Shown here one piece after another: positions 5,649-31,006 of a DNA stretch of 64,000 bases. A model generated the notes under the pieces. The model saw only the letters and a program-made list of their open reading frames with translations, did not search any database and was not told the DNA's origin. The position numbers and the translations under genes were made by a program. Position 1 is the first letter of the stretch, and each line of letters opens with the position of its first letter. Origin of the DNA: an uncultured Sulfurovum sp. (GTDB taxonomy: Bacteria; Campylobacterota; Campylobacteria; Campylobacterales; Sulfurovaceae); contig CACVAX010000034.1 in the NCBI GenBank assembly GCA_902727935.1, positions 1 to 64,000 of the forward strand, read 5' to 3'.

Positions 5649-5652
<4 letters not shown>

Positions 5653-6257
5653 TTTGTACTTCCTTCAAATTTTTCCATACTCACCGAACCAGAAGAGCTA
5701 ATATCACTTCGTTTGATTACTTTTAAAAACGTCATCCACAATATTTTCATGTCCAGTAAAAAAGATTGATTGTCAACATACCAAATATCATACTCAAATT
5801 TTTCTTCCCAACTAATTGCATTTCGTCCATTGACCTGCGCCCAACCCGTAATACCCGGGATGACCTCATGCCTTTTTTTTTGTTCATCATTATAAAGTTC
5901 TAAATACTCTAGCAAAAGTGGTCGAGGACCGACAAAACTCATCTCTCCTTTAAGCACATTTAAGAGCTGTGGTAACTCATCTAAACTTGTTTTTCTAATA
6001 AATTGTCCCACTTTTTTTAATCTATACTCATCAGCTAACAAAACACCTTTCGCATCTTTTTCATTACTCATGGTTCTAAATTTATAAATAGAAAAAAGTT
6101 GCTCTTGATACCCTGGTCGAACTTGTTTAAAAAAAATAGGTCTTCCAATTTTAAAATAAACAAGAAGTGCTGTCAAACTAATAAAAGGTAAAAAAATCAA
6201 TAGCAAAAAAAGAGCCAATAATTTATCGAGTACTCTTTTCACTACTTTCATATACAT
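5649..6257 (-). CDS. pglC: Undecaprenyl-phosphate diNAc-bacillosamine phosphotransferase (PglC)
   Basis: 202 aa, the size of the minimal monotopic phosphoglycosyl transferase PglC. A hydrophobic re-entrant segment lies at about 11-34, followed by [14 protein letters not shown] and YKFRTM. The catalytic Asp93-Glu94 dyad is in SLDELPQ, at the same positions as in C. concisus PglC. The C-terminus has FVGPRPLL and [13 protein letters not shown]. It transfers phospho-diNAcBac onto undecaprenyl phosphate on the cytosolic face, starting the lipid-linked oligosaccharide. It lies 2 bp from pglB. Met3 is an alternative start; no strong RBS separates the two. Confidence 0.95.
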
Positions 6258-6259
6258 AA

Positions 6260-8434
6260 TTACTTGACTTTATAAATTTTACTATAAGGAGAGCTAACAA
6301 CTAACTCAAATAGGTTTTTATCATATTTACCCAACATAAACATTTGTACATAAGTTGAATTGTAAGTTTTTTTATCCATCACAATCATTTGATTATAACT
6401 CTTCAAAAAGACCACAGCATACTCTCCATCCATATGCATTAATTTTGAATCTACAAGAATTTTATCTTTTTGACCAAATGCAACCGTATCAAAGCGTTGA
6501 ACTTTTTTCTTGGTTCCTTGAAGCTCAATTTCACCTTTTATAAAATCAAAAATAATTCCATTTTGAAGTAAGACTTTAGAACCCTCTTGTTTTACAGGTT
6601 GAGTCGGATAAAAATGAATGGTTCTTTCAGCTCTTCCAGTTTTTAAATTAAGATTTCCAAACACACTTACAGTTGGAAAAATACGTAACATTCTATAAGG
6701 TAAATAGAGATAAACCTCTCTTGTTTTTTTAGGTAAGGCATAATCTTTCTTTTTTAAATCATGTAGAAATTGATTTGGACTTTTATCTGTGCTGTTAAAG
6801 AGTGTATCGGCTACCAATGAATAATTAGAGTCCACATAAGTTTCTATGGCTAATTTACTTAAATTAGCCACTTGTTGAGGTGAATCTGAAAACATCAGTT
6901 TAGACACTATATAGTTATCATGTGTATGTTTCCCACCATCAATCAAGGTATTGGTGTTGGAGTAATACCAAATAGGATAACCGTAATCCCACCAAGTGAG
7001 CGTATAATCTTTATTGGAGGCAATAGCATCCAATTTTACCAAGTCATTCACTTCAGTTTTATTCAATACCGTTGGCACTAAATAACCTTCAATATGCTTA
7101 ATATTTGGGTAAATCAAAGCCACCGTTGCCAAAATAATAAACCCATATTTAGCCAAGTTCTTATTTTTAATATTTTCTACTTTTTTATGAATTAGATCAC
7201 CTAGTATATACAAAAGATAAATAGCAGAAAGGGCAGCAACAGGTACAGCATATACCGTAAAACGTAAACCACCCCACATGGAAAATACGCCAACCCCAAT
7301 CAGTGGTAAGGCAATTAAAAAAGCTTTATGTCGCATGACTAAAAACATATAACCTATCAGACTTAAAATAACGCCTATTTGTGAACCAGATATTCTGTTT
7401 GCCATGGTCTCAAAAGGAATTGCCCCAGCTTCACGTACGGTTTGAACCACTTGATAAAACTGTAAACTTCCAGCATCCACACCTCTAACGGCATAAGCCG
7501 TAATATTTCCCCAGATAACCATGAAAATATTTGAAAAAATCAAAAAACCTACAAAAAAAACAGCAGCCATCGCAAAGAGGATTTTCTCTTCAACATCAAG
7601 CTTTAACAACAAAATAAAAATAAGCACAAAAAGTATCATTCTAACTTCAATAGGCAGCATAATCATTAAGGGGATACTCACCAACATCACCGTGGCATAT
7701 AAAGACAAAGCATTCTCTTTAAAACCCTTCGCCCCAATCGTATGTACACGTCCTTCATGTTCAAGAAACAAATAAATAACCAAAAGAACATACATGGCAT
7801 AGACCAGTGTCATTCCTTGTGAATAAAAATAAGGGTAAATAAAAATCATAAACGAAGAAAACAAAATAGCCCCGATACTTTTTCGATAGACTATTTGTAA
7901 AAAAGAGTAAAAAATCATAAATTGCATAAAGACAGAGAACATATCCGTATCGTAATACCCTACCATCGTACGGTTATAATAACTCCATGCAATGGATCCT
8001 AAAAGAGCAGCTAAAAATCCAAGCCCTGTATTTCCCATCAATCGACCCGTTAAAATAATAGGAATAACAATCAATGAAGCAATAATACCAGGTAAATAAA
8101 GTGAAACCGTATCCAATGAAAATGGTAAAAATTTAGTAGCATAGGCTGTTAACAATACCAGTCCAGGACTCACATCATAAGCACTTGCACGTTGCCTATC
8201 AAGAGCCGTTACACCATCAATAACATCTCTTGCCCCTGTTGAAAAAAAATATCCATCATTGGTATTAATCATCAACTCATTGGCATACATCATTGCAGCT
8301 TCACCTTCAAAATGAAGGGGCCAATACATGCGAACACCCATACTAAAGGCATAGGCTACAAGCATTAACAGTAATAGCAGTCCTAACTTATTTTCTAACA
8401 ACTCATTGCTAAGTATCTTATTTGTTTGTTTCAT
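6260..8434 (-). CDS. pglB: Bacterial oligosaccharyltransferase PglB (STT3 family)
   Basis: 724 aa, GT66/STT3 length. About 13 TM helices occupy roughly residues 17-445, followed by a periplasmic C-terminal domain. The catalytic signature WWDYG is at 481-485, the first-loop segment [12 protein letters not shown] at 58-70, and the metal-binding DxD motif in YYDTDMF (Asp162, Asp164). Glu335 in TVREAG is a candidate for the external-loop Glu. It transfers the undecaprenyl-linked glycan en bloc to Asn in D/E-X-N-X-S/T in the periplasm. It overlaps pglA by 17 bp. A lipoprotein packed with such sequons is encoded at 27342-29915. Confidence 0.97.
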
Positions 8435-9581
8435 TTTCTTCTCTCATTTTTAGTGCCTCATAAAGCGTTATGTACTGATGAACAACATTTTTTACATCAA
8501 ACTCATTAATCGCCATTATTCTACCATTTTCACCCATAATTTTTCGTTCATCTTCATGCTTTAAAAGATATTCTATCTTCTCTGCTAAGGATTCTGAATC
8601 TTGTATGGGTACCAAAAAACCATTTTCACCATTTTTTACCACTTCTCGACACCCAACCGTATTAGTTGTGACAATTGGTTTCGCCATCGAAGCTGCTTCA
8701 AGAAGCGTACGAGGAACGCCTTCTCGGTAACTCGGTAACACATAAATATCACTCATTGCTGTGAGTTCTAAAACATCATCTCGATGTCCCATCCAAAGTA
8801 CATCACCTGTCTGCAAAAATGCTTTATTAGCTGAAGAGGGATTTCCCTCATCTATCTCACCTACCAAAATAAACTGCACATTTGGATAATGACTCAATAA
8901 ACTAGCAGCCTCATAAAATTCACGTACTCCCTTATGCCAAATGGCTCGTGCTACCATAAGCACCACAGTTTTATTCACTAAGTCTAACTTTTTTCTTAAA
9001 ACTTGAACTGTTTCTTTCTTCACATTGTTAGGATTAAACACTTGGGTATCTATCCCAACAGATTTAATAATATGTATTTTATCTTTAGCAATAACTCTTT
9101 TGGACGCTAAATATTTTGGATCATCAGAATTAACAAAGATTACTTTGTCTGAAAAAGAAAAAACTAATTTATACAACTTCTCAATAAGTGTACGAACCAT
9201 TATGTTTTTAGGACTATCTTCAATATAAAATGACCCTAAGCCCTCAACCAAATTTATAATCTTTGGAATCTTTGCCATTTTAGCAGCTACCGTTCCATAA
9301 ATATTTGGCTTGGCTGTAAAGGTATGAATCATCTCCAACTCAAGAGGCTTAATAGCTCTATAAATATTATAAACAGCTTTTAACTCTTTCAAAGGATTTA
9401 AACTAGAGCGTTGAATTTTATACGCTACTGCTTGTATTCCATCTCTTTCAAATAACTCAAATTTATCTCCTCTTGGACAAATAGCATAAACCGTATGCCC
9501 TTGCTCAACCAACTTTTTCATAATTGGTAAACGAAAAAGATAAAGGTTTAAATCTAAGTGTGACAAAAACCCTATGGTCAT
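8418..9581 (-). CDS. pglA: GalNAc transferase PglA, GT4 family
   Basis: 387 aa. The N-terminus MTIGFLSHLDLNLYLFRLPI and the segments RSSLNP, LVEGLGSFYI and ARAIWHKGVREFYEA resemble C. jejuni PglA closely. The GT4 EX7E motif is Glu287-Glu295 in REGVPRTLLEA. PglA adds the first alpha-1,3-GalNAc to undecaprenyl-PP-diNAcBac. A start 17 bp inside pglB's neighbour region and a 4-bp overlap with pglJ indicate translational coupling. The exact sugar added in this organism could differ from GalNAc. Confidence 0.92.
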   Translation of the reverse strand: MTIGFLSHLDLNLYLFRLPIMKKLVEQGHTVYAICPRGDKFELFERDGIQAVAYKIQRSSLNPLKELKAVYNIYRAIKPLELEMIHTFTAKPNIYGTVAAKMAKIPKIINLVEGLGSFYIEDSPKNIMVRTLIEKLYKLVFSFSDKVIFVNSDDPKYLASKRVIAKDKIHIIKSVGIDTQVFNPNNVKKETVQVLRKKLDLVNKTVVLMVARAIWHKGVREFYEAASLLSHYPNVQFILVGEIDEGNPSSANKAFLQTGDVLWMGHRDDVLELTAMSDIYVLPSYREGVPRTLLEAASMAKPIVTTNTVGCREVVKNGENGFLVPIQDSESLAEKIEYLLKHEDERKIMGENGRIMAINEFDVKNVVHQYITLYEALKMREENETNK

Positions 9582-10762
9582 AATCTACTCCTCTCCAGTA
9601 CATCTATATAGGCATCTACAATTAAAGCTTTATCAAAAGACTTTGCTCGTTTTTTTGCTCTTTGTCTATAATTTTCTCTTAACTCTATATCTTTTAGCAT
9701 TAAGTTCATCATTTCTTTTAATTTATTGGTATTATTTATTGGTATAAGTATGCCATATTCGGCAACTTCATTTTTATCTTTTAACTGAAAAGCTATTTTA
9801 GAGCTAGGAGCTAAAATTTCTCGTGGTCCACTTTTACAATCTGTTGAGATTATTGGCAAAGCACAAGCCAATGCTTCTACCAAAACATTTGGAAAGCCTT
9901 CATAACTAGAAGAAAATACAAAACAATCTGATTTTGAAAAATATTTATAAGGGTTGCTATCAAAGCCTAATAAAAAAACTCTTTTTTCTAAATTTAAGAA
10001 TCGTATCTGCTCTTCTAAAGTAACTTTTAATCCACCCTCACCCAAAATAATAAGTTGTACATTTTTATTTTCTATCTTAGCAAAAGCATCTATCATCATT
10101 GTATGATTCTTACCAGTATCAAGTCGTCCTACACTTACAAAAGTAAATTTATTAAAATCAATTCCTTCTACAGGCTCTTCAGAAAGTTTTTCTATTTTGG
10201 CTAAATCAAAAGGATTATGTATCGTAGAAGTTAGTGCCAAGGGAATTCCAAAGTTCTCAGTTAAATCTTGTCTATTTCCTTCAGCATTGCAAACAATAAA
10301 ATCTGCTTTTGGATATAGTTTTTTAATCAAATACTTACTTATTTTAGAAACCAAATTATCAGCTCTGTACATCATAGAGGGGGTTGTTCTTTCACTAATA
10401 GTTGTAAATGCTTTATTTCCAAAAAGTTTAGCAAATATTGAAACATATGAAGGTCTATTCATAAATGCTAAAGATACTTCTATATTATTTTCTTGGCAAA
10501 ACTTTTTATATTTCCAGCCTAGAACAGGCAACTTTAATAACTTTAAAATGCCATGCTCATCAGGTTGTGAATTTTCTAAAAAATGTATCTTAATACTTTG
10601 TGGAATTTCATAATCTATCTTATCTCGCATTAACACTAAAGTAATATCATACTTATCTTTTAACTCCTGTAAAAGTATGGACACCACACGCTCTGCTCCT
10701 CCTCCTGCTAGAGAATAGATTAGGATTGAGAGGGTCGGCTTACTTTTTTCTTTAGACAACAA
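9578..10762 (-). CDS. pglJ: PglJ-like glycosyltransferase, GT4 family
   Basis: 394 aa. GGGAERVV lies at about residues 20-27, and there is strong resemblance to C. jejuni PglJ in YEIPQSIKIHFLENSQP, LVSVGRLDTGKNH-type and LLGFDSNPYKYFSKSDCF segments. The GT4 EX7E is in SYEGFPNVLVEALA. PglJ adds the second GalNAc, 1,4-linked, to the lipid-linked disaccharide. The gene starts 5 bp after the upstream methyltransferase and overlaps pglA by 4 bp. The polymerising transferase PglH and the branching PglI are not seen in the window, so later sugars probably come from the GT4 and GT2 upstream. Confidence 0.88.
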   Translation of the reverse strand: MLSKEKSKPTLSILIYSLAGGGAERVVSILLQELKDKYDITLVLMRDKIDYEIPQSIKIHFLENSQPDEHGILKLLKLPVLGWKYKKFCQENNIEVSLAFMNRPSYVSIFAKLFGNKAFTTISERTTPSMMYRADNLVSKISKYLIKKLYPKADFIVCNAEGNRQDLTENFGIPLALTSTIHNPFDLAKIEKLSEEPVEGIDFNKFTFVSVGRLDTGKNHTMMIDAFAKIENKNVQLIILGEGGLKVTLEEQIRFLNLEKRVFLLGFDSNPYKYFSKSDCFVFSSSYEGFPNVLVEALACALPIISTDCKSGPREILAPSSKIAFQLKDKNEVAEYGILIPINNTNKLKEMMNLMLKDIELRENYRQRAKKRAKSFDKALIVDAYIDVLERSRL

Positions 10763-10767
10763 AATAA

Positions 10768-11580
10768 TTAACTTCTTTTTTGACCAATATAATTATAGTG
10801 CGTAAAAAATAGTGATAAAAATTTAGGAAATACTTTTTCAAAAATTAATAGCTTATCAAAATAATGACTATTAGGAAAAATTCTAAAATACTCTATACGC
10901 TTGTTCTCAATAGTATATTTTTTAAAATTTTTTATTAACCTTCTAGCAGTTAATACGCGTTCATTACCATAAGGACGTTTTAAACCTTGACTATCAGTAT
11001 GATAATTAATGGTTTCAAAACCTCTTTGTTTAAAAAGTGCTAATTGAATTAAAGGATTTAGTGCATTTGATTCTGAAATAACCAAGTAGCCATTTGGCTT
11101 TAAGAGCAACGATATTTTTTCAGAAACCATTTCTCTTGGCTCTAAATGATGATAAGCTTGTTCTATCCAAATAAGATCATATTGCTCTACCTCGTCCAAT
11201 TCTAATACAGAAATATTTTTAAAATCACAATTTAACTTTGTATCTAACTGTTTTTCCATAACATCTTTTCGACACTTAGCTGTATTCACCCGTTTATCAT
11301 CAATATCTATACCCAAAACATTTGCACCATGCAATGCCATAAAAAGAGATTCACTTCCTAAACCACATCCAACTTCTAAAACCTTGGGATTATCAATTTT
11401 TGATAATATTTTCATTGCTCCTTCTAATTGTTTATCATAAAAATATTGTATTCGAGGAGGAAAACTCTTTAAATAACTTGTATAATACCTATTAAAAAGC
11501 GTTTGCTCTTCCTCCTCTAATAGTGCATTATTAAACCAAATCATTAAAAACTCTGATGGGGATTGTATATTATGAAACAT
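10768..11580 (-). CDS. Class I SAM-dependent methyltransferase
   Basis: 270 aa. Motif I is KVLEVGCGLGSESLF at 66-80, followed by the ribose-binding acid in VLGIDIDDKRV (about 92-95). The motif IV region is YDLIWIEQAYHHLEP, and LLKPNGYLVISES is motif VI. This is the Methyltransf_11/25 fold, usually acting on small molecules or glycans. There is no TM segment. It sits between asnB and pglJ with an 11-bp overlap. A glycan O- or N-methylation role is inferred from position. The substrate cannot be told from sequence. Confidence 0.8.
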   Translation of the reverse strand: MFHNIQSPSEFLMIWFNNALLEEEEQTLFNRYYTSYLKSFPPRIQYFYDKQLEGAMKILSKIDNPKVLEVGCGLGSESLFMALHGANVLGIDIDDKRVNTAKCRKDVMEKQLDTKLNCDFKNISVLELDEVEQYDLIWIEQAYHHLEPREMVSEKISLLLKPNGYLVISESNALNPLIQLALFKQRGFETINYHTDSQGLKRPYGNERVLTARRLIKNFKKYTIENKRIEYFRIFPNSHYFDKLLIFEKVFPKFLSLFFTHYNYIGQKRS

Positions 11581-13456
11581 GTTTACTCCTTTTACTAATA
11601 TATTGCTTGTACCACAACTGAAAAACTAAAACATACCAAAGTTTATTGACATTTAATGCTTTATTTTTTTTCAACTTTTGGTGTTCTTGCTGTACATATT
11701 TATAATCAAATAAATTATGTTCTTCTAAAGCTTCTTTCTTTAAATGTTCTTCAAAAAGACTAGATAAGTCATTAGCAAACCACTCAAACATTGGGATAGC
11801 AAAGCCTTTTTTAGGTCGATTAATCATCTCTTGGGGAATATATCTTTCTAAGACTTTTCTTAGTAAATACTTTGAATCTCCATTTTTATATTTAAATTCA
11901 AAAGGAACTTGTGCCATAAACTCAGCTATTCTATGGTCAAGCAAAGGCTCTCTTCCCTCAATAGAGACTGACATGGTGGCTCTATCTACTTTTGTTAAAA
12001 TATCATCAACCATATAACGATGATAATCCCATAACATCATTCCTTGCATGGGCGTATCTTTTTGACCTATTTCAAAAGCTTTTTCTTCAATTTGATGCTT
12101 ATGGTTTAACAATGATGAAAGCTCGTAATTTTTTGAGGTATGCACAATTGCCTCATACATATTTTTCCATGAATCATTAGCCAGTACTTCCCTAAACTGT
12201 AAAAAACGATGTTGTAACAACGCATTTCTTATTAAAAAAGTTACAACTTTTTGACTTGGAATATTCATTAAAAAACCTAAAACTTTTCGCATAACTTTAG
12301 GTATTTTATGTATCTTTTTCCCTACACGATTCATGACCCAATAACGCTCATACCCACAAAAGATCTCATCACCACCATCAGCAGAAAGTACCACTTTAAT
12401 ACCTGCTTCTTTTGCCATTTTACTCACCAAGGTTGTTGGAATAGCACTACTATCACCAAAGGGTTCATCATAAATATCCACAAAACTTTTTAAAATCTCT
12501 TTGGCTTCTTTTACTCCTAAAAATTTTTCAGAATGGGTCGTTCCTAAATGCTTAGCCACCTCCTTAGCAAAAGTTGCTTCATTATACTTGCTCTCTTCAA
12601 AACCTATCGTAAAAGTATGAATGTTTCCGTGATGTTTTTGAAGTATCGCTGCCACAATAGAACTGTCTATGCCTCCACTTAAAAAAACCCCAACAGGTAC
12701 ATCTGAAATCATACGATATTTAAAAGCATCAATTAAAAGTGCTTCTAATTCATTAACCAATTCTTCTTCTGTTTTCTTAAATTTTGGACGTTCAAAAAAA
12801 GGTAAAATAGACCAATATTCAGAAATATCTAAAGTCATTTGTTTTAAATTAAAGGTTAAATAGTTTCCAGCAGGGACTTTGTAACACTTTTCAAATATAG
12901 ATAAATTTGATGAAATGTAGCCAAACTGAAAAAATTCATGCAATGCATCTTTAGAAATCTCTAAATTATGTCGATACGCCATAATGGGTTTTAATTCACT
13001 CGCAAAAACAAATACCTCCCCATCAAAAAAATAATAAAGAGGCTTAACCCCTACTCTATCCCTTATAAGTACTAAATCTAAAGAGTTTATATCATAAATA
13101 GCAATAGCAAACATACCTATAAATTTATCTACTGCTTTTATACCCCAAGCATGATAAGCTTTTAAAATAACTTCACTGTCCGTATCTGAAATAAAAGTAT
13201 AATCTAACTCTACTAACTCTTGACGAATCTCTTTAAAATTATAAATCTCTCCATTATAAACCATACGTAAATGTTCAAATATCATAGGCTGATGTCCTAA
13301 TGAACTTAAATCTAAAATAGAAAGTCTAGCATGTCCTAAAGAGATTCCAGACTCTTCATAAACTCCCTTATCATCTGGACCTCGATGCTCTATGCTTTCA
13401 AGCATATTTTCTAAAACATCAGAGTTTTGTCCATTAAAACCTACTATTCCACACAT
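11570..13456 (-). CDS. asnB: Asparagine-synthase-like glutamine amidotransferase
   Basis: 628 aa. The class II glutaminase domain begins with Cys2 (MCGIVGF), which fixes the start, and includes RGPDD, NGEIYNF and DTDSEV. The synthetase domain has the PPi loop SGGIDSS at 260-266 and the downstream DGGDEIF motif. In cytosolic metabolism AsnB amidates aspartate, but homologues of this length inside O-antigen and glycan clusters (WbpS-like) amidate uronic acids of nucleotide or lipid-linked sugars. With ugd in the same operon, amidation of a glucuronate-type residue is plausible (inference). It overlaps the GT4 by 13 bp and the methyltransferase by 11 bp. Confidence 0.88.
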   Translation of the reverse strand: MCGIVGFNGQNSDVLENMLESIEHRGPDDKGVYEESGISLGHARLSILDLSSLGHQPMIFEHLRMVYNGEIYNFKEIRQELVELDYTFISDTDSEVILKAYHAWGIKAVDKFIGMFAIAIYDINSLDLVLIRDRVGVKPLYYFFDGEVFVFASELKPIMAYRHNLEISKDALHEFFQFGYISSNLSIFEKCYKVPAGNYLTFNLKQMTLDISEYWSILPFFERPKFKKTEEELVNELEALLIDAFKYRMISDVPVGVFLSGGIDSSIVAAILQKHHGNIHTFTIGFEESKYNEATFAKEVAKHLGTTHSEKFLGVKEAKEILKSFVDIYDEPFGDSSAIPTTLVSKMAKEAGIKVVLSADGGDEIFCGYERYWVMNRVGKKIHKIPKVMRKVLGFLMNIPSQKVVTFLIRNALLQHRFLQFREVLANDSWKNMYEAIVHTSKNYELSSLLNHKHQIEEKAFEIGQKDTPMQGMMLWDYHRYMVDDILTKVDRATMSVSIEGREPLLDHRIAEFMAQVPFEFKYKNGDSKYLLRKVLERYIPQEMINRPKKGFAIPMFEWFANDLSSLFEEHLKKEALEEHNLFDYKYVQQEHQKLKKNKALNVNKLWYVLVFQLWYKQYISKRSKHVS

Positions 13457-14553
13457 TTAATAATCTCTTTTTCTGTGTTTTTCACCATTTTCTCGATTGA
13501 AAAATTCTCAACAACCCCTTTTCGACTCTCTTCACCTAAAAACTTATAATCTTTTGCTAACATCTCCACTAACCCATCATATAAACTATCTACCTCTTTA
13601 GCTTCAACTACAACACCATACTCATCAACTATTAAAGCACTATCTCCCACATCTGTAACCACACAAGCTAAAGATGAAGACATTGCTTCTGCTATACTAT
13701 TAGAAAACCCTTCACCAAAAGAGGCAGAGACAGCTATGTCAAAACCACTATAAATATCCTCTACATTCTGTTGCTGACCTAACCAAAAAAATCTCTTCTC
13801 ATTGTACTCACCTAAAATGTACTCACACTTACTTTGTATCTCTTGGCTACCTCCTCCAACAGATACAAAATAAACATTTTCATACTCAGTAACAATTCGT
13901 TTTGCTACTTCACTGAAAATTAAATAACCTTTTATTTTATCAAGCCTCGCAACCATTCCAATAACAATATCGTCTTTATTTAAACCATATTCATTTCTAA
14001 GCAATTTTCTTTTTTCATTATCTCTCTGAAATCGATTAGTATCAATACCGTTGGCAATAACAACTGCCTTTTGCATATCAAAGCCATGCTCTTTGTGATA
14101 TTCAATTGAAGCAAAAGAATTTGAAATAATTTTATCTACTTTTGAAGAAAACTTTTTTTGTAACCAAAAGATTCCACGTGAAACTTTTCCGTACTGACTC
14201 CAATCTTTATCTGAAGTTCGAAATCCCCATATAATCTTAGTTTTTTTAGGTTTTGCCCATAAAGAAAAAAGGCTCATCTCTCCTAAAAAGCTATAAATAA
14301 CACTAGGATTAACCTCTTCTATAAGTTTAGAATAATTTTTATAAAAACTATAAAAATCATATCTTCCTTGTTTTTGAAAATTAACATATGTAATATTAGA
14401 AACATTTTTAATAAGTGGCTCTTGAATCCCACCATACATGGTACAAACAGTTACTTCAAATTTAAATTTATCGATGTGTTTAACCAACTCTATAAACTGT
14501 TTTTCAGCACCACCAATGTCTAAGGAACGAATGGCTAACAATACTTTTATCAT
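13444..14553 (-). CDS. Glycosyltransferase, GT4 family
   Basis: 369 aa. GT-B fold hallmarks are the N-terminal IRSLDIGGAEKQF (GGAEK at 14-18), a central VGMVARLDKIKG strand and the donor-binding EX7E in FGEGFSNSIAEAMSS. It is cytosolic and peripheral, with no TM segment. As a retaining GT4 in the pgl operon it probably adds a sugar after PglJ. The donor and linkage cannot be assigned. It overlaps asnB by 13 bp and the GT2 by 4 bp. The sequence is strikingly AT-rich, like its neighbours up to 17.3 kb and unlike the lsrK region next to them. Confidence 0.85.
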   Translation of the reverse strand: MIKVLLAIRSLDIGGAEKQFIELVKHIDKFKFEVTVCTMYGGIQEPLIKNVSNITYVNFQKQGRYDFYSFYKNYSKLIEEVNPSVIYSFLGEMSLFSLWAKPKKTKIIWGFRTSDKDWSQYGKVSRGIFWLQKKFSSKVDKIISNSFASIEYHKEHGFDMQKAVVIANGIDTNRFQRDNEKRKLLRNEYGLNKDDIVIGMVARLDKIKGYLIFSEVAKRIVTEYENVYFVSVGGGSQEIQSKCEYILGEYNEKRFFWLGQQQNVEDIYSGFDIAVSASFGEGFSNSIAEAMSSSLACVVTDVGDSALIVDEYGVVVEAKEVDSLYDGLVEMLAKDYKFLGEESRKGVVENFSIEKMVKNTEKEIIKCVE

Positions 14554-15482
14554 TTTATTAATACCTTTTGATAGACTCTTATATCAACAAGAAAAATCAA
14601 CAGTAACAACAAATTTTTAAACATCAATGTTCTTAATAACTCTCTAATAACTCTATATTTTTTTACCTGAATCAGTTTTAAATAATACCCATAAACATTT
14701 TTATATTTTGCAACTACTTTCCAAAACCATAAATTTAATTTAGAAATTTGACTATGCTTTAAAGCATAAGAGTACAGATTGTCATACAGGCTAAGATTTA
14801 AGGTAAAGTCTTCAATACTACTATTTTGCGATGCATTAGAAGAGTGATGATTCCAAACGCCTACAAAAATATCTAAAAAAGCGACTTGATTATTTAACAA
14901 AATTTTTAAAAGAGACTCCCTATCAGAACTAAGAACATTAGATTCATAAAACCCCAACTCTAATGCTTTTTTACGTTTATATAAAGACGCCAGATGAGGT
15001 ATCTCTATATTCTTATAAATAGTCTCTAAAAAAAGACTATTCCCTTCCAATATTCCTTCTTTTAAATGCTCATTTTTATACCTATATTCTTTATCTAAAT
15101 TTTCTTTATATACTATCTGTTTACCAAAAACCAATACCAAATTATCATGATTTTTAATAAATGTAATCGCTTTTTCAATAAATGTTTTATCTTTAAAGTA
15201 ATCATCTCCATCTAAATTAATTACCCATTCTCCATGTGCTAATTCATTCAATAAAAAATGATAATTTTTCACTCGACCAAGAGGGTGACTATTATGCAGG
15301 TAATGGATATCTTTTTTAAACTGTTGATTTACAATTTCTTCTGTTAGGTTATCAGTTGAATCATCCGAAACTATAATCTCTATATTAGAGTAAGTTTGAG
15401 CTAAGACACTCTTAATACTTTTGACGATATATTGAGATTGATTGTAGGTTGGAATCATAACCGTTACCAATGGAAGCGACAC
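14550..15482 (-). CDS. Glycosyltransferase, GT2 family
   Basis: 310 aa. The GT-A fold starts with LVTVMIPTYNQSQYI at 5-19, then IEIIVSDDSTD (nucleotide binding) and the DxD metal site in NLDGDDYF (Asp91-Asp94). A hydrophobic stretch near the C-terminus (about 288-303, FKNLLLLLIFLVDI) could anchor it to the membrane. It is an inverting transferase predicted to extend or branch the lipid-linked glycan. PglI, the C. jejuni branching glucosyltransferase, is also GT2, but I do not see enough similarity to call it PglI. Confidence 0.83.
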   Translation of the reverse strand: MSLPLVTVMIPTYNQSQYIVKSIKSVLAQTYSNIEIIVSDDSTDNLTEEIVNQQFKKDIHYLHNSHPLGRVKNYHFLLNELAHGEWVINLDGDDYFKDKTFIEKAITFIKNHDNLVLVFGKQIVYKENLDKEYRYKNEHLKEGILEGNSLFLETIYKNIEIPHLASLYKRKKALELGFYESNVLSSDRESLLKILLNNQVAFLDIFVGVWNHHSSNASQNSSIEDFTLNLSLYDNLYSYALKHSQISKLNLWFWKVVAKYKNVYGYYLKLIQVKKYRVIRELLRTLMFKNLLLLLIFLVDIRVYQKVLIK

Positions 15483-15484
15483 AC

Positions 15485-16087
15485 CTACCTCTTTTCCAAC
15501 TCAAAGTAAATTTCATAACATGGAAACAGATAAACAAAGATTTCTTCATATAACTCTTGCATATATCGGTTCAAATTAAAAAATTTTTGAAAAATCTTTT
15601 TAATGATGTTTCTAAACCTAAAAGGCGAAGCAAATATAATTTGTATATCAGCCTGATAAAATTCAATAGAATTATAATACTTTGGAACAGTTCTTTTAAA
15701 TAAATTATTTTTAGTAAAATAACTTAATGTGTATAAACCCCATAATGACTTATGGGTATAATCACTATAAAAATAAGGATTTGAAAAGTGGGGTACCGTT
15801 CCTATAAGCCTTCCATTCTTTTTAAGCACTCTAAAAATTTCTGACATAAAAAACTCTAAATCTTCAAGATGTTCTAAAAAATGATAAGCATGAATAATAT
15901 CAACTGAATTATTTTCTAAAAAAATTAAACCTTTTGTTAAATCTGTCCGATAATCAACTGATGATTTTTCACAAATATCAATACCTATAGCACGATTATC
16001 TTTTTTAATTTCACCTGGTCCAAGCTCGATAATAACCAATTCATTATTTTTTATTTTCTTATCTATTATTTCATTGATTGCATTCAT
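15485..16087 (-). CDS. Class I SAM-dependent methyltransferase (Methyltransf_11 type)
   Basis: 200 aa. A degenerate motif I, ELGPGE, is at 21-26, with GIDICE following. DIIHAYHFLEHLEDLEFF and IFRVLKKNGRLIGTVPHF (motifs IV-VI) are typical of glycan-locus methyltransferases. The YFTKNNLFKRTVPKYYNSIEF-type tail is common in O-antigen clusters. This second methyltransferase of the operon overlaps wzx by 4 bp and lies 2 bp from the GT2. The substrate is unknown; a sugar hydroxyl is the usual target in this context. Confidence 0.78.
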   Translation of the reverse strand: MNAINEIIDKKIKNNELVIIELGPGEIKKDNRAIGIDICEKSSVDYRTDLTKGLIFLENNSVDIIHAYHFLEHLEDLEFFMSEIFRVLKKNGRLIGTVPHFSNPYFYSDYTHKSLWGLYTLSYFTKNNLFKRTVPKYYNSIEFYQADIQIIFASPFRFRNIIKKIFQKFFNLNRYMQELYEEIFVYLFPCYEIYFELEKR

Positions 16088-17328
16088 AAACTTTCTCTCC
16101 TATAAATCTCGACAAAATATCTCCATATAATAAAATACTGTAATGCCACAACAACAATGACCATTCCTATTGTGTTCCAAAACATAATGCCTAAAGGGAC
16201 AAGTATTATATTTAAGATCATAATATCTCTTACAATTTGACTGATTTTTTTACTTTGTAGTTTTGTCACCATTACTTGTCCATATAAAGTACTAAAAGGT
16301 GTTGTGAAAATTAAAAACAGAAGAATATAATAAATCTCCTCTATTTCATTGCACATGCTTCCATTCACAAAGATTATAATTTCTTCTGTAAAAATATACA
16401 TTATTAAAAATAAAAAAGAAGAGATGCCTAAATAAACAAAACTAACTTTTTTAAGAAAAAGCATAAATTCTATTTTTTTATTTTGATACAACTTTGCCAT
16501 AAAAGGATATATAGCTTGATTCGCAGGAATAAACAATCCTACTACTACATTAATTATTCTCTCTGCAATTGAATAATACCCAACCGTAGTAGTATTCGTT
16601 AAAATTCCTAACAATAAAACATTAGTTGCTCTGTATAAATTAACAAACATTTGAGCTTTAAATAAATCCCAACCATCCACAAGATAATGCTTTAATCTTT
16701 CAGAAGATTGCATTCTAAACTGAACATTAAAGTGATTATGTATAATCCACAAAGACCAAAAACCCACCAAAACAAAACCTAAAGAAGTAAATAAAGGCAC
16801 TAAATAAAAATCACTTTTTTCTTGAACAAACACAAAAATAGCCACAGTAAAAATAGATTTTGCAACAATATTTAAATATGTAATATACTTCATCTTCTCC
16901 ATACCCTGAAAAAACCATACAGGGAAAAGAGCTTGTCCAATAACCAACCCAAAAGAGATAAGATAAACTTCCCAGTCTTTAGCAAGTTTATCAAAAGTAA
17001 AAACAATCGATGCCAACAATAAAAAACTAAAAATCATTAATATCATTTTAATACTCATCACAGCTGAAAAAATTTCAATAACTTTCTCTTTATTTTCTCG
17101 ATGAATAGAAATTTCACGTGTTGCTGTTAAATTAAATCCATAATCTGTAATAATATTAAAATAGGATATCAGAGCCGTAGCAAAAGCCAAAAGTCCAAAA
17201 TATTCTATTCCCAAAACTCTCACCAAATAAGGAAAAGTAAGTAAAGGTAAAATATAATTAACACCTTGTAGTGATGCTAATGAGAAAAAATTTGATAGTA
17301 ATCTTTTTTTATCGCTACGCTCTATCAA
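16084..17328 (-). CDS. Wzx/RfbX-type lipid-linked oligosaccharide flippase
   Basis: 414 aa, almost entirely hydrophobic, with about 12 TM helices. The N-terminus SNFFSLASLQGVNYILPLLT and YLVRVLGIEYFGLLAFA is the signature of the RfbX/Wzx (MATE-like) polysaccharide exporters. It should flip the undecaprenyl-PP-glycan to the periplasmic face, where PglB acts. In Campylobacter this job is done by PglK, an ABC transporter. No ABC transporter gene is in the window, so this is the likely functional replacement. First gene of the operon, with a promoter-like -10 about 38 bp upstream. Confidence 0.87.
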   Translation of the reverse strand: MIERSDKKRLLSNFFSLASLQGVNYILPLLTFPYLVRVLGIEYFGLLAFATALISYFNIITDYGFNLTATREISIHRENKEKVIEIFSAVMSIKMILMIFSFLLLASIVFTFDKLAKDWEVYLISFGLVIGQALFPVWFFQGMEKMKYITYLNIVAKSIFTVAIFVFVQEKSDFYLVPLFTSLGFVLVGFWSLWIIHNHFNVQFRMQSSERLKHYLVDGWDLFKAQMFVNLYRATNVLLLGILTNTTTVGYYSIAERIINVVVGLFIPANQAIYPFMAKLYQNKKIEFMLFLKKVSFVYLGISSFLFLIMYIFTEEIIIFVNGSMCNEIEEIYYILLFLIFTTPFSTLYGQVMVTKLQSKKISQIVRDIMILNIILVPLGIMFWNTIGMVIVVVALQYFIIWRYFVEIYRRESL

Positions 17329-24504: not shown

Positions 24505-27321
24505 CTATGGTAAATAAGCTGTCGTTCCTCTAAAGCCTATTCCATTGGTACTATTGAGTAAATCTGAATCGCTTCCTGTTGTTCCTTGGAGTAAATAAAG
24601 CAGTGTTCCCCCTCGAACAGTTACAGCGTAATTATCTTTAAAGATACCAACCCCCATACCAACATCTAACGCTGCATTTGCACCATAGTCTGGACTGCTA
24701 TCATTATAACGTATAGTGTCCATGTCAACCCCCCACCAACTTTCGACATCATCCAAAGAAAACTTAACAGTACCAGAAGCATCTACCAACCATATTAATT
24801 CTTTTAAATACTCCTTCTGTCCTGCACCAAATTCATAAATCGTGTCACTGTAGCCATTAAGGGGTATGTTCTTATCAATCCCCAATAGATTATTTGTTAA
24901 AGTTTTTCCATCACCACCATTAGCAACATTGGCATTTAACAATTTACTAATTTGTGCATACTGTTTGTGTGTCAACAAGCCTAAAGGTTTTGCACTGCTA
25001 AATTGACTTAAACTTGCCATGGCTAAATAGGCTGAAAGGGATGAGCTTCTTGGATTTAAATTTGCATAGTCATTAGAAAACGAGATCACTTTTCCTTTTA
25101 AAGTATCTACCAAATTTTCACTCATATAACCTTGTAAACTCTCTGAAGTATTGGAAAGCGTAAAATATTTATCAATAAAAACATTGTAATTGCCTACAAT
25201 ACTAATAATCTTTGCTGAAGCAATTTCAGCACCTGTTTCTCTGGCTTGATAACGTGATGTCCAAAAACCTGTTTCATTGATACCATCTTCATCTACATCA
25301 AACCCACCAGGAATGTAAACAAATCCGTCATCAAGCATCTTGACATTTCCAGCTTCTTCAAATATCCATGAACAACGTTTATTAGCATCTAAAGGATCAC
25401 CTTCTGTACATTCGGCTTCTTTAATATTAACTTGTCCATCACCATCTGAATCATTATTTGGATTATTGTTACTCACATCTTTATCATCAAATACACCATC
25501 ATTATCACTGTCTAAAATACTTGACTCTAAGGCATCAATAATACCATCACCATCACTATCTTGAATCCCTTCATCAAGATCATTAATCCCATCTCCATCA
25601 CTATCAGCTAACAAAGGATTTGTTCCTAAATGAAGTTCAGCTTCATCGGTTAATCCATCATTATCGTCATCAATATCAGAATCATCATTAATGCCATCTC
25701 CATCAGCGTCTAGCCCATTATCAAGAACACCATCGCCATCCACATCAGCGTCAGCAGAGTCTTTAATTCCGTCTCCATCCGTATCTGTTCCATTGTCAAT
25801 TATTCCATCACCATCAATGTCAGCATCTACCCCATCAGGTATGCCATCACCATCGGTATCAGGGTTGGTACTATTCGCATCGATATTATCAGCAATACCA
25901 TCATTATCATCATCTGTATCATGTAAATCATTAATTCCATCAGAGTCACTGTCAATACCATTGTCTACAACACCATCACCATTAATATCTGCATCAGCAC
26001 CATCTTTAATGCCATCATTATCAATGTCATCATTATTATCATTGGGGTCAATGGCATCAGCTAGTCCATCGGTATCACTGTCTCTATTGTTATCAATCAC
26101 ATCTTGTTCATCTGTAATGCCATCACCATCAGCATCATTACCATTATCAGCAATGCCATCGCCGTTCACATCGACATCAGAGAGGTCATTAATACCATCT
26201 CCATCGGTATCAATACCATTATCGCTTATTCCATTACCATCTACATCAGCATCTACTCCATCTGGAATACCATCACCATCACTATCATAATTGGCATCAT
26301 TGGGATCTTTATCGTCTAACAAGCCATCATTATCATCATCGTTATCATGTTCATTGTTAATGCCATCACCATCAAAATCTTCTCCATTGTCAAGAACACC
26401 ATCGCCATCCACATCAGCATCAGCAGAGTCTTTAATCCCGTCTCCATCTGTATCTGTTCCATTGTCAATCGTTCCATCACCATCAATGTCAGCATCTACC
26501 CCATCAGGTATATCATCGCCATCGGTATCAGAATTAGTACTATTTGCATCTATATTATCAGCAATACCATCATTATCATCATCCGTATCATGTAAATCAT
26601 TAATTCCATCAGAGTCACTGTCAATACCATTGTCCACAACACCATCACCATTAATATCTGCATCAGCACCATCTTTAATGCCATCATTATCAATGTCATC
26701 ATTATTATCATTGGGGTCAATGGCATCAGCTAATCCATCGGTATCATTGTCTCTATTGTTATCAATCACATCTTGTTCATCTGTAATGCCATCACCATCA
26801 GCATCATTACCATTATCAGCAATGCCATCACCGTTCACATCGACATCTGACACATCATTAATACCATCTCCATCGGTATCAATACCATTATCGCTTATTC
26901 CATTACCATCTACATCAGCATCCACTCCATCTGGAATACCATCACCATCACTATCATAATTGGCATCATTGGGATCTTTATCGTCTAACAAGCCATCATT
27001 ATCATCATCGTTATCATATTCATTGTTAATGCCATCACCATCAAAATCTTCTCCATTGTCAAGAACACCATCTCCATCTACATCAGCATCAGCAGAGTCT
27101 TTAATCCCGTCTCCATCCGTATCTAATCCATTGTCAATTGTTCCATCGCCATCAATGTCAGCATCTACCCCATCAGGTATGCCATCGCCATCGGTATCAA
27201 TAACTTCAACTACCCCAGCCACATTGGAATTACTAGAAGTGTTTGCTCTATCTGAACCACAAGCAACGAACCATAAGCTTAAACCAGCAAGTAAAAAGAT
27301 ATTAAATAATTTTTTTTTCAT
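24505..27321 (-). CDS. TSP3-repeat surface lipoprotein with FGE-like C-terminal domain (938 aa)
   Basis: The N-terminus has a lipoprotein signal with lipobox WFVAC followed by GSDR. Residues about 40-650 are calcium-binding thrombospondin-type-3-like repeats (DTDGDGIPDGVDADIDGDG and variants), very rich in Asp and Gly, including a 223-residue block duplicated in tandem. The last 280 residues form a globular domain shared with the 857-aa neighbour. It starts VYIPGGFDVDEDG-NETGFWTSRYQAR and ends YAVTVRGGTLL-GIGFRGTTAYLP, resembling the formylglycine-generating-enzyme/C-type-lectin fold. Two DANST sequons for PglB are present. It is probably displayed on the outer membrane; its ligand or enzyme activity is unknown. 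Confidence 0.85.
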   Translation of the reverse strand: MKKKLFNIFLLAGLSLWFVACGSDRANTSSNSNVAGVVEVIDTDGDGIPDGVDADIDGDGTIDNGLDTDGDGIKDSADADVDGDGVLDNGEDFDGDGINNEYDNDDDNDGLLDDKDPNDANYDSDGDGIPDGVDADVDGNGISDNGIDTDGDGINDVSDVDVNGDGIADNGNDADGDGITDEQDVIDNNRDNDTDGLADAIDPNDNNDDIDNDGIKDGADADINGDGVVDNGIDSDSDGINDLHDTDDDNDGIADNIDANSTNSDTDGDDIPDGVDADIDGDGTIDNGTDTDGDGIKDSADADVDGDGVLDNGEDFDGDGINNEHDNDDDNDGLLDDKDPNDANYDSDGDGIPDGVDADVDGNGISDNGIDTDGDGINDLSDVDVNGDGIADNGNDADGDGITDEQDVIDNNRDSDTDGLADAIDPNDNNDDIDNDGIKDGADADINGDGVVDNGIDSDSDGINDLHDTDDDNDGIADNIDANSTNPDTDGDGIPDGVDADIDGDGIIDNGTDTDGDGIKDSADADVDGDGVLDNGLDADGDGINDDSDIDDDNDGLTDEAELHLGTNPLLADSDGDGINDLDEGIQDSDGDGIIDALESSILDSDNDGVFDDKDVSNNNPNNDSDGDGQVNIKEAECTEGDPLDANKRCSWIFEEAGNVKMLDDGFVYIPGGFDVDEDGINETGFWTSRYQARETGAEIASAKIISIVGNYNVFIDKYFTLSNTSESLQGYMSENLVDTLKGKVISFSNDYANLNPRSSSLSAYLAMASLSQFSSAKPLGLLTHKQYAQISKLLNANVANGGDGKTLTNNLLGIDKNIPLNGYSDTIYEFGAGQKEYLKELIWLVDASGTVKFSLDDVESWWGVDMDTIRYNDSSPDYGANAALDVGMGVGIFKDNYAVTVRGGTLLYLLQGTTGSDSDLLNSTNGIGFRGTTAYLP
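25862..27199. repeat. 669-bp tandem duplication inside the 938-aa lipoprotein gene
   Basis: Two copies (25862-26530 and 26531-27199) are nearly identical. Landmarks such as atcggtatca recur at 25852, 26521 and 27190, exactly 669 bp apart. A partial third copy runs to about 25.7 kb. Each copy encodes 223 residues, so the frame is kept. Such repeats can expand or contract by recombination and may collapse in short-read assemblies. Confidence 0.9.
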
Positions 27322-27341: not shown

Positions 27342-29915
27342 TTAATATAAATAGTCAGTCGCTGCTCTAAAACTAATTCCATTCGTGAGTCCAGCATCAT
27401 CCGTTAAGGCACCTGAAATACCTTGGGTAACATCTAAAATTGTTCCACCTCTTACAATCACAGCATAGGAGTCTTTTTCAGGTCCAATTCCATTTCCTAA
27501 ATCTTGTGTGGTATTTGCTCCAGAATCAAAAGCCTTAAACTTACTAGGATTAGCATCCCACCAATCAGGAACATCCTCGGCAAAGGTAAATGTGTCTACA
27601 AAAGTATTGGTATTTACAGTTTGTCTCAATTGTACAAGGTTTCGTACAAACTCTTTTAAATCTTCTCCAAATTCATCAATAATTAAATTGTAAGTGAAAA
27701 GAGGAACATTAGGGTCTCGTCCTAAAACTCCGTTACGAATATGCCTTCCATCCCCTAAGAGTCCATTTTCATTAGGAGTGACTAAATCGGCATCCAATAA
27801 CATTTTTACATGCATGTATTGTTTATGAGAAGGCATCGTAATGTTAATATCAAGTGCCTCACCATTTTCATCTCTTAAAACATATCGATCAAGACAAACC
27901 TCTGCTAAATAAGGGGTAAAATTTGAAATTCTCTCTATTCCAGCAATACTTTCTTCATCAAAAATCAATTCACTTCCAGCAACAACGCCTGTCTCTTTTA
28001 AGGGGGCTTCATTGTAACTTAGCACATCAACATTTCGATTCAAAACTTTAAATTTTTTAGAGAGATATTGATTCACATTACCAACATCTTCAATAACACT
28101 TTGGCTACTAATTTCTATGCCTGATGCTCTTGCTTGATATCGTGAAATCCAAAAACCACCTTCATTAATACCATCACCATCCACATCAAAACCTCCAGGA
28201 ACATAAGAGTAACCATGCGAAGTTAAAACTTGACCTACATGACTGTCAAAAATATAAGGACAAGCCTTTGTTGCATCTACAGCATCCCCTTGAGTACAAT
28301 TATTCTCAAAGCTATTAGACTGTCCATCACCATCACTGTCATTACTTAGGTCTAAGGCATTAATCACATCTGATACTGGTGTAGGTAGTCCATCTTTTGC
28401 TGGATTCTCATTAGCTCCTCCAGTCAAAGTTTCAGGTGTTGTGAGACAGCTCACATTTAAATCGTTTGTAGCATAAGAATAAACCTCAATCCCATCTGCC
28501 ACACTATCTTCATCCGTATCACTATTACTTGCATTTGTTTCATAGTTAAGAATTTCAAAACCATCTAAAAGACAATCCCCATCTGTATCAGCATTGCTTA
28601 CATTTGTATCATAAATATTAACTTCTTGACCGTCTAACAAACCATCACCGTCCGTATCAGTATTACTTAAATTACTATCATAAACATTAATTTCTTCACC
28701 GTCTAACAGACCATCACCGTCCGTATCAGCATTGCTTACGTTACTATCATAAATATTAATTTCTTCACCGTCTAATAGACCATCACCGTCCGTATCAGCA
28801 TTGCTTACATTGGTATCATAAATATTAATTTCTTCACCGTCTAATAGACCATCACCATCAGTATCAGAACTACTGGCATTGGTATCATAAATATTTATCT
28901 CATCTCCATCTAATAGACCATCGTTATCACTGTCATTACTCTCAGGGTTTGTACCATAAATATCTCGTTCATCACTGTCCACGATTCCATCACCATCACT
29001 GTCAATTACTAAGTTAGGGTCTAACGCATTGATAACATCTGTTCCATCATTTGGTCTGTTATCCATAGCAGGTTGCGTGTTATGCCCCCCAACTAATGTT
29101 TCTGGTATGCTCAAACAAGTACTATTAATTTCCGTCAAGCTATAAGAATAAATCTCAATACCATCAGCTCTTCCATCAGCATCTGTATCACTGTTACTCG
29201 CATTCGTTTCATAATTTAAAACTTCAAAACTGTCCAATAAACAATCTCCATCAGTATCAGAACTACTGGCATTGGTATCATAAATATTTATCTCATCTCC
29301 ATCTAATAGACCATCGTTATCACTGTCATTACTCTCAGGGTTTGTACCATAAATATCTCGTTCATCACTGTCCACGATTCCATCACCATCACTGTCAATT
29401 ACTAAGTTAGGGTCTAACGCATTGATAACATCTGTTCCATCATTTGGTCTGTTATCCATAGCAGGTTGCGTGTTATGCCCCCCAACTAATGTTTCTGGTA
29501 TGCTCAAACAAGTACTATTAATTTCCGTCAAGCTATAAGAATAAATCTCAATACCATCAGCTCTTCCATCACCATCGGTATCACTGTTACTCGCATTCGT
29601 TTCATAATTTAAAACTTCAAAACTGTCCAATAAACAATCACCGTCCGTATCAGAACTACTGGCATTGGTATCATAAACATTTATCTCATCACCATCTAAT
29701 AGACCATCGTTATCGGTATCATTTTTATCAGGGTTCGTATTATAAATTTCTCTCTCATCACTATCTGATATACCATCACCATCACTGTCGTTATCAACAA
29801 CTCCTAAAACACCACTTGAACTATTATTCTCACTTCCAGCCCTATCTGAACCACAGGCATTCAAAAGCAACATTAGTATTAGCATAAAAATTATTATTTT
29901 AATTTTTCTCATCAT
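27342..29915 (-). CDS. Sequon-rich TSP3-repeat surface lipoprotein (857 aa)
   Basis: Signal peptide with lipobox LLNAC (lipid Cys21) followed by GSDR. Residues about 40-545 hold around 17 repeats of the TSP3/EF-hand-like kind, DTDGDGLLDGEEINIYDTN. The last 300 residues are the same FGE-like domain as in the neighbouring lipoprotein (YVPGGFDVDGDG-FWISRYQAR to VIVRGGTIL-ISFRAATDYLY). I count 19 sequons D/E-X-N-X-S/T, the acceptor of PglB, mostly one per repeat. Asn346, 369, 392, 415, 438 and 461 are exactly 23 residues apart. It overlaps ompA by one base (TAATG), so expression is coupled. Surface adhesion or matrix display is a guess. Confidence 0.88.
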   Translation of the reverse strand: MMRKIKIIIFMLILMLLLNACGSDRAGSENNSSSGVLGVVDNDSDGDGISDSDEREIYNTNPDKNDTDNDGLLDGDEINVYDTNASSSDTDGDCLLDSFEVLNYETNASNSDTDGDGRADGIEIYSYSLTEINSTCLSIPETLVGGHNTQPAMDNRPNDGTDVINALDPNLVIDSDGDGIVDSDERDIYGTNPESNDSDNDGLLDGDEINIYDTNASSSDTDGDCLLDSFEVLNYETNASNSDTDADGRADGIEIYSYSLTEINSTCLSIPETLVGGHNTQPAMDNRPNDGTDVINALDPNLVIDSDGDGIVDSDERDIYGTNPESNDSDNDGLLDGDEINIYDTNASSSDTDGDGLLDGEEINIYDTNVSNADTDGDGLLDGEEINIYDSNVSNADTDGDGLLDGEEINVYDSNLSNTDTDGDGLLDGQEVNIYDTNVSNADTDGDCLLDGFEILNYETNASNSDTDEDSVADGIEVYSYATNDLNVSCLTTPETLTGGANENPAKDGLPTPVSDVINALDLSNDSDGDGQSNSFENNCTQGDAVDATKACPYIFDSHVGQVLTSHGYSYVPGGFDVDGDGINEGGFWISRYQARASGIEISSQSVIEDVGNVNQYLSKKFKVLNRNVDVLSYNEAPLKETGVVAGSELIFDEESIAGIERISNFTPYLAEVCLDRYVLRDENGEALDINITMPSHKQYMHVKMLLDADLVTPNENGLLGDGRHIRNGVLGRDPNVPLFTYNLIIDEFGEDLKEFVRNLVQLRQTVNTNTFVDTFTFAEDVPDWWDANPSKFKAFDSGANTTQDLGNGIGPEKDSYAVIVRGGTILDVTQGISGALTDDAGLTNGISFRAATDYLY
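28861..29646. repeat. 393-bp tandem duplication inside the 857-aa lipoprotein gene
   Basis: Copies at 28861-29253 and 29254-29646 differ at only a few bases, and a partial third copy begins at 29647 (gtatcagaac recurs at 28861, 29254 and 29647). Each copy encodes 131 residues with four PglB sequons. Near identity suggests recent duplication or ongoing homogenisation. Confidence 0.92.
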
Positions 29916-31006
29916 TATTTACCTTTAGGATAAAAAAGTTCAGCTTCAATACGGCGATTTGATGCTCGTCCACTGGCCGTCTTATTTGTGGCTATTGGCA
30001 TACTTTCACCTCTTCCAAATGCTTCTAATCTTGCAGGACTAATACCATAGTTGCGTAATGCATTTAACACAGAGTTTGCCCTTCTATCTGAAAGTGCTAA
30101 ATTATGCGTAGCCGTACCTTTACTATCCGTATGTCCTGTAATCCTAACAGTACTTCCCCTATTATTTAAAAGAAACTGTGCAAACTTATGAACTTGACCC
30201 ATGGACAAGGCTCTAATTTGGGCAGAGTTTGTTTCAAAATTAATTCTTAACGTGGTTTTAACAGGACAACCATAATTATCTACACTAAAACTACAAGGGG
30301 TAGCAGGACATTGGTCAAGGCTGTCAGTGACACCATCTCTATCAAAATCAGGTGCTGAAATTTTGATGGGACAAGCATTATTATTACTATGTACCACGGA
30401 CACTTGAGAGCTTATAGGTTGAGGTCGCACAATAATAGGTTGTTGCTGAATTACTCTGGGTTGTTGTATCACTCTTGGGACTACTTTTTTAACTACTGGT
30501 GCTACACCAATGGGCATACTAATACCAGCTGTTAGCATAAACTCATTATTTTCATCATTACCTCCAATAATTTGAAGCACTTTACCCTCCACACGTGCCT
30601 TAAAACCTTTTTCTAGGTCTACTTTAAGACCTGCTCCACCTTGAACAAAAGGATGACTTTCAAAAACATCTTTTGTCCCTCCACTGACATATTCATACCC
30701 CACACCAGCCACAGCATAAGGAGTGGTATTAGTACTGTTTTCATACTCATATACCCCATTTATGGAAGCTTTCACTAAGGCACTGGCTTTATCATTCTTT
30801 ATACTAGTATAGTCTATATCAACCCTCGGTGCTACGATATATTTATTATCTTGATAGCTTAATCCAATACTAGGATTTTCAAATTTATTGCTATCTTCAT
30901 TTTTCGTTGAGTTTATCCCAATATTAATGCCAAGTTCACGCTCAATATTTGTCGCATTTAAGAGTGTAATACTCACAACAAAAGAGAATATTATTATTTT
31001 AAACAT
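29915..31006 (-). CDS. OmpA-family outer-membrane protein with a TSP3 linker
   Basis: 363 aa. A signal peptide (about 1-18, ending LLNA) precedes an eight-strand-type beta-barrel domain (to about 175). A Pro/Gln/Val-rich linker with RVIQQPRVIQQQP follows, then a single TSP3 unit DFDRDGVTDSLDQCPATP and the OmpA peptidoglycan-binding domain (FETNSAQIRA, TGHTDSKGTATHNLALSDRRA, GRGESMPIATN). It links the outer membrane to peptidoglycan. First gene of an operon with the two TSP3 lipoproteins, which suggests that the three form a surface complex (inference). Confidence 0.93.
   Translation of the reverse strand: MFKIIIFSFVVSITLLNATNIERELGINIGINSTKNEDSNKFENPSIGLSYQDNKYIVAPRVDIDYTSIKNDKASALVKASINGVYEYENSTNTTPYAVAGVGYEYVSGGTKDVFESHPFVQGGAGLKVDLEKGFKARVEGKVLQIIGGNDENNEFMLTAGISMPIGVAPVVKKVVPRVIQQPRVIQQQPIIVRPQPISSQVSVVHSNNNACPIKISAPDFDRDGVTDSLDQCPATPCSFSVDNYGCPVKTTLRINFETNSAQIRALSMGQVHKFAQFLLNNRGSTVRITGHTDSKGTATHNLALSDRRANSVLNALRNYGISPARLEAFGRGESMPIATNKTASGRASNRRIEAELFYPKGK

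Follow-up and report, generated by a model that had tools for sequence, protein, structure and literature searches.

A Sulfurovum lipoprotein with a predicted N-glycosylation site in every typical TSP3 repeat unit

Why does a bacterial calcium-repeat lipoprotein carry a candidate N-glycosylation site in each of its typical repeat units, and is it an acceptor of the oligosaccharyltransferase (OST) encoded nearby? The question is raised by P0001, an 857-aa protein with thrombospondin type 3 (TSP3) repeats and 19 extended sequons, whose gene occupies 27342..29915 on the minus strand of the window, i.e. of the whole stretch of 64,000 nucleotides that was analyzed. An initial annotation had described it as a purpose-built, densely N-glycosylated surface display scaffold. 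The reading that we favor, with a probability of roughly 0.6, is that P0001 is an exported lipoprotein whose TSP3 stalk has been kept as an acceptor that offers the resident PglB many sites.

The lipoprotein and its genomic context

P0001 is defined by its open reading frame and by a match to the TSP3_bac profile (Pfam: PF18884; 5.3e-30, 103.3 bits, gathering cut-off 25). Its hydrophobic N-terminal signal (29847..29915, minus strand), read by eye, ends at lipobox Cys21 (LNAC followed by GSDRA), with a slightly atypical Asn at position -2. In most TSP3 lipoproteins of the same locus (29847-29915 in the window; homologs L038-L053, L117 and L120), the sequence runs on from the lipobox Cys as C-G-x-D/N-R-A, possibly a signal for sorting or for export to the surface. 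The repeat array (residues 43-488; 28452..29789, minus strand) comprises 13 typical 23-aa TSP3 units, and the C-terminal domain (residues 526-857; 27345..28340, minus strand), which is conserved within the genus, contains the sequons at Asn539 and Asn691.

Profile searches with the C-terminal domain of P0001 returned no Pfam or PDB family match. The domain is common to both TSP3 lipoproteins of the window (27345-28340 and 24508-25455), the second copy likewise being without a Pfam or PDB match. Its tail, RGG...GFRAAT, recalls the end of FGE-sulfatase domains, below significance. An FGE-sulfatase-like (C-type-lectin-like) head, suspected from RGG...GFR, gained no support in any profile search; hhalign of the domain against FGE-sulfatase gave a probability of 2% (E 0.022), confined to this tail. 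Two AlphaFold2 models were discarded, namely that of the C-terminal domain (pLDDT 30, with the two window paralogs as sole input) and that of the repeat block (pLDDT 64, an improbable all-beta solenoid). Assignment to the gliding lipoprotein CglD (NF033765) was also rejected, the score of 76.4 bits covering the repeat region only and the equivalog cut-off being 400.

Throughout the genus, the locus has the gene order RecQ - OmpA - TSP3 lipoprotein - 2Fe-2S ferredoxin - PanD. Most often there is a single TSP3 lipoprotein; the window has two. The second one is a paralog of 938 aa (24505..27321, minus strand), whose C-terminal domain is 43% identical to that of P0001. Upstream of P0001 lies an OmpA-family protein with a TSP3 linker (29915..31006, minus strand). 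Because the start codon of P0001 and the stop codon of OmpA overlap (TAATG) and the paralog lies close downstream, the genes for OmpA, P0001 and the paralog look like one operon. Just as the initial annotation stated, the paralog contains two extended sequons and the OmpA protein none. The closest homolog of the 938-aa paralog (82%) is found in genome G022, where the position expected for a P0001 ortholog (L052, about 3920-6350) is a run of N (assembly gap or masked).

Density of extended sequons

According to a scripted count, P0001 contains 24 core N-X-S/T sites, and 19 sites of the extended form D/E-X-N-X-S/T (X not Pro), located at Asn31, 65, 84, 107, 133, 196, 215, 238, 264, 327, 346, 369, 392, 415, 438, 461, 487, 539 and 691. 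The number and every position agree exactly with the earlier count by eye, including six consecutive sites spaced 23 residues apart (Asn346, 369, 392, 415, 438 and 461). Shuffling, which had been proposed as a check, does not reproduce such counts: 10,000 whole-protein shuffles of P0001 yielded a mean of 2.5 sites (SD 1.5) and a maximum of 13. Because P0001 is a repeat protein, this null is too lenient; it was therefore supplemented by a unit-level comparison with other TSP3 proteins and by a column permutation, and a strong sequon excess persists under both of these stricter comparisons.

The base rate of the genome was estimated from a sample of 283 proteins, encoded in the window and in 20 other stretches of the same genome. 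Among the 282 other proteins, the next richest has 3 extended sequons. Per 100 aa, P0001 has 2.2 extended sequons, compared with 0.35 in signal-bearing proteins without transmembrane (TM) segments, 0.07 in cytoplasmic proteins and 0.05 in the membrane-protein class, these classes being set by crude hydrophobicity. Signal-bearing proteins without TM segments thus have about five times the cytoplasmic density in this sample. The claim that the density of P0001 is not a by-product of composition is supported as regards TSP3 composition, in that TSP3 units elsewhere and the other sampled proteins of the genome are far poorer. An extended sequon on an exported protein is expected of a PglB acceptor, and P0001 presents 19 of them.

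Organization and copying of the repeat array

A typical TSP3 unit consists of DxDxDGxxDxxExxxY and a 7-residue linker up to the next Asp; all 13 units of P0001 contain at least one extended sequon. Two types of unit can be distinguished. In type A, the Pro is retained and the sequon lies towards the end of the linker, Y-x-T-N-P-[D/E]-x-N-D-[S/T] (GTNP-D/E-x-N-D-S/T); in type B, another residue takes the place of the Pro and the sequon comes earlier, Y-[D/E]-[T/S]-N-[A/V/L/S]-[S/T]. The arrangement in two registers, noted earlier, is real and recurs in two orthologs from two other species of the genus, L117 (a fragment, from genome G013) and L038 (from G003). In L117 the order is A-B-A-B, followed by a degenerate A; L038 likewise contains units of both types, of which some are degenerate. 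Since both arrays are mixed in this way, the ancestral array of the clade was probably a dimer of one A and one B unit, each with its own sequon.

Much of the array in P0001 consists of copies. A 131-aa segment, which holds one unit of type A, two of type B and an EINST-containing linker, occupies residues 43-173 (29397..29789, minus strand) and is repeated at residues 174-304 (29004..29396, minus strand). The two copies differ at 25 of 393 nt, corresponding to 12 synonymous and 8 non-synonymous codons, and 324 bp are exactly identical (CDS nt 345-668 and 738-1061, offset 393 nt). A third, partial copy (residues 305-465; 28521..29003, minus strand) runs into the tandem 23-aa units that bear Asn346-461. 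By descent, the sequons form about seven classes: {31}, {65, 196, 327}, {84, 215, 346, 369, 392, 415, 438}, {107, 238, 461}, {133, 264, possibly 487}, {539} and {691}. Because the 131-aa segment was duplicated and the 23-aa units were amplified, the 19 sites overstate the independent evidence. Hence, "purpose-built" is too strong a term for sites that go back to about seven classes, mostly through copying.

The phylogeny of the C-terminal domain groups P0001 with L039 and L038 (100/99), and places L040 and L041 as their sister with weaker support (90/89). Of the typical units, 13/13 carry an extended sequon in P0001, 4/4 in L117 and 6/8 in L038; the fractions for other homologs of the genus are 2/9 (L041), 1/15 (L040) and 1/40 (L048), together 4/64 units. 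L039, although of the same clade as P0001, has just 4 sites. In CLLDxFE, the one unit that is clearly orthologous among these proteins, P0001, L040 and L041 have a sequon and L038, L039 and L048 have none, i.e. three of six lack it. Sequon-poor sister homologs with kept repeats occur in pglB-positive genomes. Homologs that keep the repeats and lose the sequons had been named in advance as evidence against a glycosylated scaffold; they exist in part, since the sister same-locus proteins L040 and L041, and also L048, fit this description, whereas L117 and L038 retain their sequons. A homolog in G002 (L045, 5073-7952) has 11 extended sequons in another, DGDGIND-type repeat context, many of them EDNDS or DNNNT; pglB was not detected in G002, an 83%-complete draft.

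The exact 324-bp duplication, the near-identical 131-aa copy and the small number of classes are what would be expected if one or two ancestral units had held a sequon by chance and tandem duplication had multiplied it, without glycosylation being selected for and whether or not PglB modifies some of the resulting sites. Sister homologs without sequons, and clade units that have lost theirs, fit this account as well. We nevertheless regard it as unlikely, albeit worth serious consideration. Diverged units of P0001 often differ by 6-14 nonsynonymous codons of 23, yet D/E, N, non-P and S/T are kept; DKNDT and ESNDS in type A units are separated by three replacements, each of them sequon-compatible. 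Furthermore, both registers are kept in orthologs whose arrays are organized differently, and the sequons at Asn539 and Asn691, which lie outside the repeats, are also kept in L038 and L039.

Sequons in other TSP3 proteins

Outside the genus, extended sequons were found in 2/23 units from the rest of the phylum, 1/86 from Bacteroidota, 4/87 from archaea and 1/22 from other bacteria. A comparison with other TSP3-repeat proteins had been suggested earlier; its outcome, above all for Bacteroidota, is that sequons are not generic to TSP3 units. The Bacteroidota set stems mainly from a family search centered on the genome of an Ulvibacter locus, and STT3 was absent in the two Bacteroidota genomes examined directly. 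A scan of named genomes was probed partly with the peptide DKNDTDND, which biases towards sequons; hence, this family-search set, and not the named-genome loci, served as the main background.

For the column permutation, 24 distinct clade units from three species were used: 20 sequon units were observed and 6.2 expected, and none of 20,000 permutations reached the observed number. Position 17 (-2) is acidic in 14/14 units with a non-Pro residue at +1, compared with 0/10 Pro units. In the non-Pro units, position 21 (+2) is exclusively S/T, and D/E as well as S/T interchange freely. The p-values of the permutation and the covariation are too small, because related units are treated as independent, and the covariation pattern may descend from only two founding unit types.

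These comparisons also bear on the idea that D/E-T-N-A/V-S/T is a local turn or capping motif that has replaced GTNP in this clade and matches the PglB sequon by coincidence. Units of both types conserve the Asn and the Tyr before it, which a structural turn would predict. However, a motif of this kind is nearly missing in the TSP3 units of Bacteroidota and other bacteria, and the second, shifted sequon in Pro-type units of the same array would be left unexplained, which makes the idea improbable.

PglB and the pgl-like locus

The window encodes a PglB oligosaccharyltransferase of 724 aa (6260..8434, minus strand), which aligns with C. lari PglB from end to end. Its gene lies 19 kb from that of P0001; a cognate OST is thus present in the same genome. 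In an alignment with 5ogl, the equivalents of C. lari PglB E319, R331 and WWDYG are conserved, and the STT3/PglB core (PF21436) is recognized with 144 bits at a cut-off of 23. The NCBIfam equivalog ProtGlycPglB is matched with 470.6 bits, far below the cut-off of 1300; we therefore consider the protein a divergent PglB and not the Campylobacter equivalog. Arg331 contributes to the rule of an acidic residue at -2 but is not its sole determinant (PMC4894442). Work cited in PMC6025236 identified PglB proteins of related vent bacteria, among them Sulfurovum lithotrophicum, as OTases.

Further genes on the minus strand encode a PglF-like dehydratase (2374-4161), a PglE-like aminotransferase (4152-5252), a PglD-like acetyltransferase (5245-5652), a PglC-like phosphoglycosyltransferase (5649-6257), a GT4 and a PglJ-like glycosyltransferase (8418..10762), and a Wzx-type polysaccharide flippase (Polysacc_synt; 16084..17328). 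Also located in the region 4152-17328 are two methyltransferases and a gene resembling asparagine synthase. The genes scanned did not include a PglK-type ABC flippase, and the locus is therefore better described as pgl-like than as a copy of the Campylobacter one. Given the Wzx-type flippase, the asparagine-synthase-like gene and the two methyltransferases, the glycan is probably unlike the C. jejuni heptasaccharide.

Of 34 genomes of the genus, the PglB core domain was detected in 26, in G018 as a fragment. It was not detected in G013, the home of the sequon-rich L117, a 94%-complete draft in 390 contigs, whose fragmentation makes this absence not firm. Use of the sites by a non-PglB factor, e.g. 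another glycosyltransferase, or Asp/Asn/Ser-rich linkers that merely tune calcium binding, would accord with the result for G013, but is very improbable, since the locus may be missing from that draft and bacterial OSTs of the PglB type characteristically demand an acidic residue at -2.

Proposed function

The acceptor reading is supported by the lipoprotein signal, the sequons in 13 of 13 units, the two registers, their retention (partly lost) in orthologs, and the PglB recognition residues in the window. Few independent events, the losses in the CLLDxFE unit, the sequon-poor sisters, L039, and the lack of a detected pglB in the G013 draft count against it. With a predicted site in all 13 repeats, far above relatives outside the clade, P0001 looks like a stalk evolved for sugar coating. 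What stands of the glycosylated scaffold proposed initially is a density beyond TSP3 composition, the two registers and the nearby PglB; the term purpose-built overstates the case, and the sequon-poor sister homologs in part speak against the scaffold.

During export, the stalk would pass PglB in the periplasm. From glycosylation onward, we infer that PglB would attach glycans at the linker Asn between calcium sites, at intervals of about 23 residues, either ahead of calcium binding or in the course of it. The lipoprotein would then attach to the outer membrane next to the OmpA protein encoded with it, a surface placement predicted from the lipobox, and its C-terminal domain would be displayed at the end of a glycan-coated stalk. 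The glycans may stiffen the stalk, shield it from proteases, or alter surface charge and hydration, and repeat duplication would raise the number of sites. Whether the protein is, more specifically, a mucin-like, PglB-dependent stalk, with the N-glycosylation site built into the calcium-repeat unit in two alternating registers so that each duplication adds one glycan, appears evenly balanced from its sequence.

Most known PglB targets carry one or few glycans, and it is difficult to interpret what the loss of one site means. If its sites are occupied, P0001 would offer a tractable case for the purpose of general bacterial N-glycosylation. It would be a dense bacterial N-glycoprotein made by a periplasmic OST, the natural counterpart of engineered multi-sequon acceptor tags, and would link N-glycosylation both with the calcium-dependent folding of the stalk and with variation in repeat copy number.

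Comparison with known systems

Among the 15 papers ranked highest in a literature search on thrombospondin type 3 together with Campylobacter N-glycosylation and sequons, none was listed as containing the TSP3 term. Like P0001, the acceptors of Campylobacter-type PglB (C. jejuni CmeABC, H. pullorum glycoproteins) bear D/E-X-N-X-S/T on exported proteins, in genomes with pglB and pgl-type genes. CmeA, CmeB and CmeC have two sequons each (PMC6478998), and six glycosites are distributed over five proteins in H. pullorum (PMC6025236). With one or two sites per protein, none of these examples has a sequon in every repeat unit, as P0001 does.

PF18884 TSP3 proteins, e.g. lipoproteins of the CglD/MtsD type, resemble P0001 in having a lipoprotein stalk made of calcium-type DxDxDGxxDxxE units, each about 23 residues long, and CglD is the best NCBIfam match of P0001. 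Their ordinary units read GT(N/D)P and, unlike those of P0001, almost never have an extended sequon. The same-locus homologs of the genus share synteny, the CGxDRA lipobox, the TSP3 array and the C-terminal domain with P0001, but sequon saturation is confined to P0001, L038 and the L117 fragment.

Examples of a repetitive bacterial exoprotein that is densely glycosylated at Asn are the adhesins HMW1, with 31 Asn glycosylation sites (PMC2877744), and EtpA, with about 1 glycan per 24 residues (PMC11463764); this density is near the one predicted site per 23 residues of P0001. These adhesins differ in that cytoplasmic, hexose-adding enzymes of the HMW1C/EtpC type act on plain N-X-S/T in proteins of two-partner secretion, with neither PglB, lipoprotein nor TSP3 involved. 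They would be the closest functional analog of P0001, by means of a different enzyme. What appears to be new in P0001 is a putative PglB-type acceptor whose predicted sequon belongs to the calcium-repeat unit itself.
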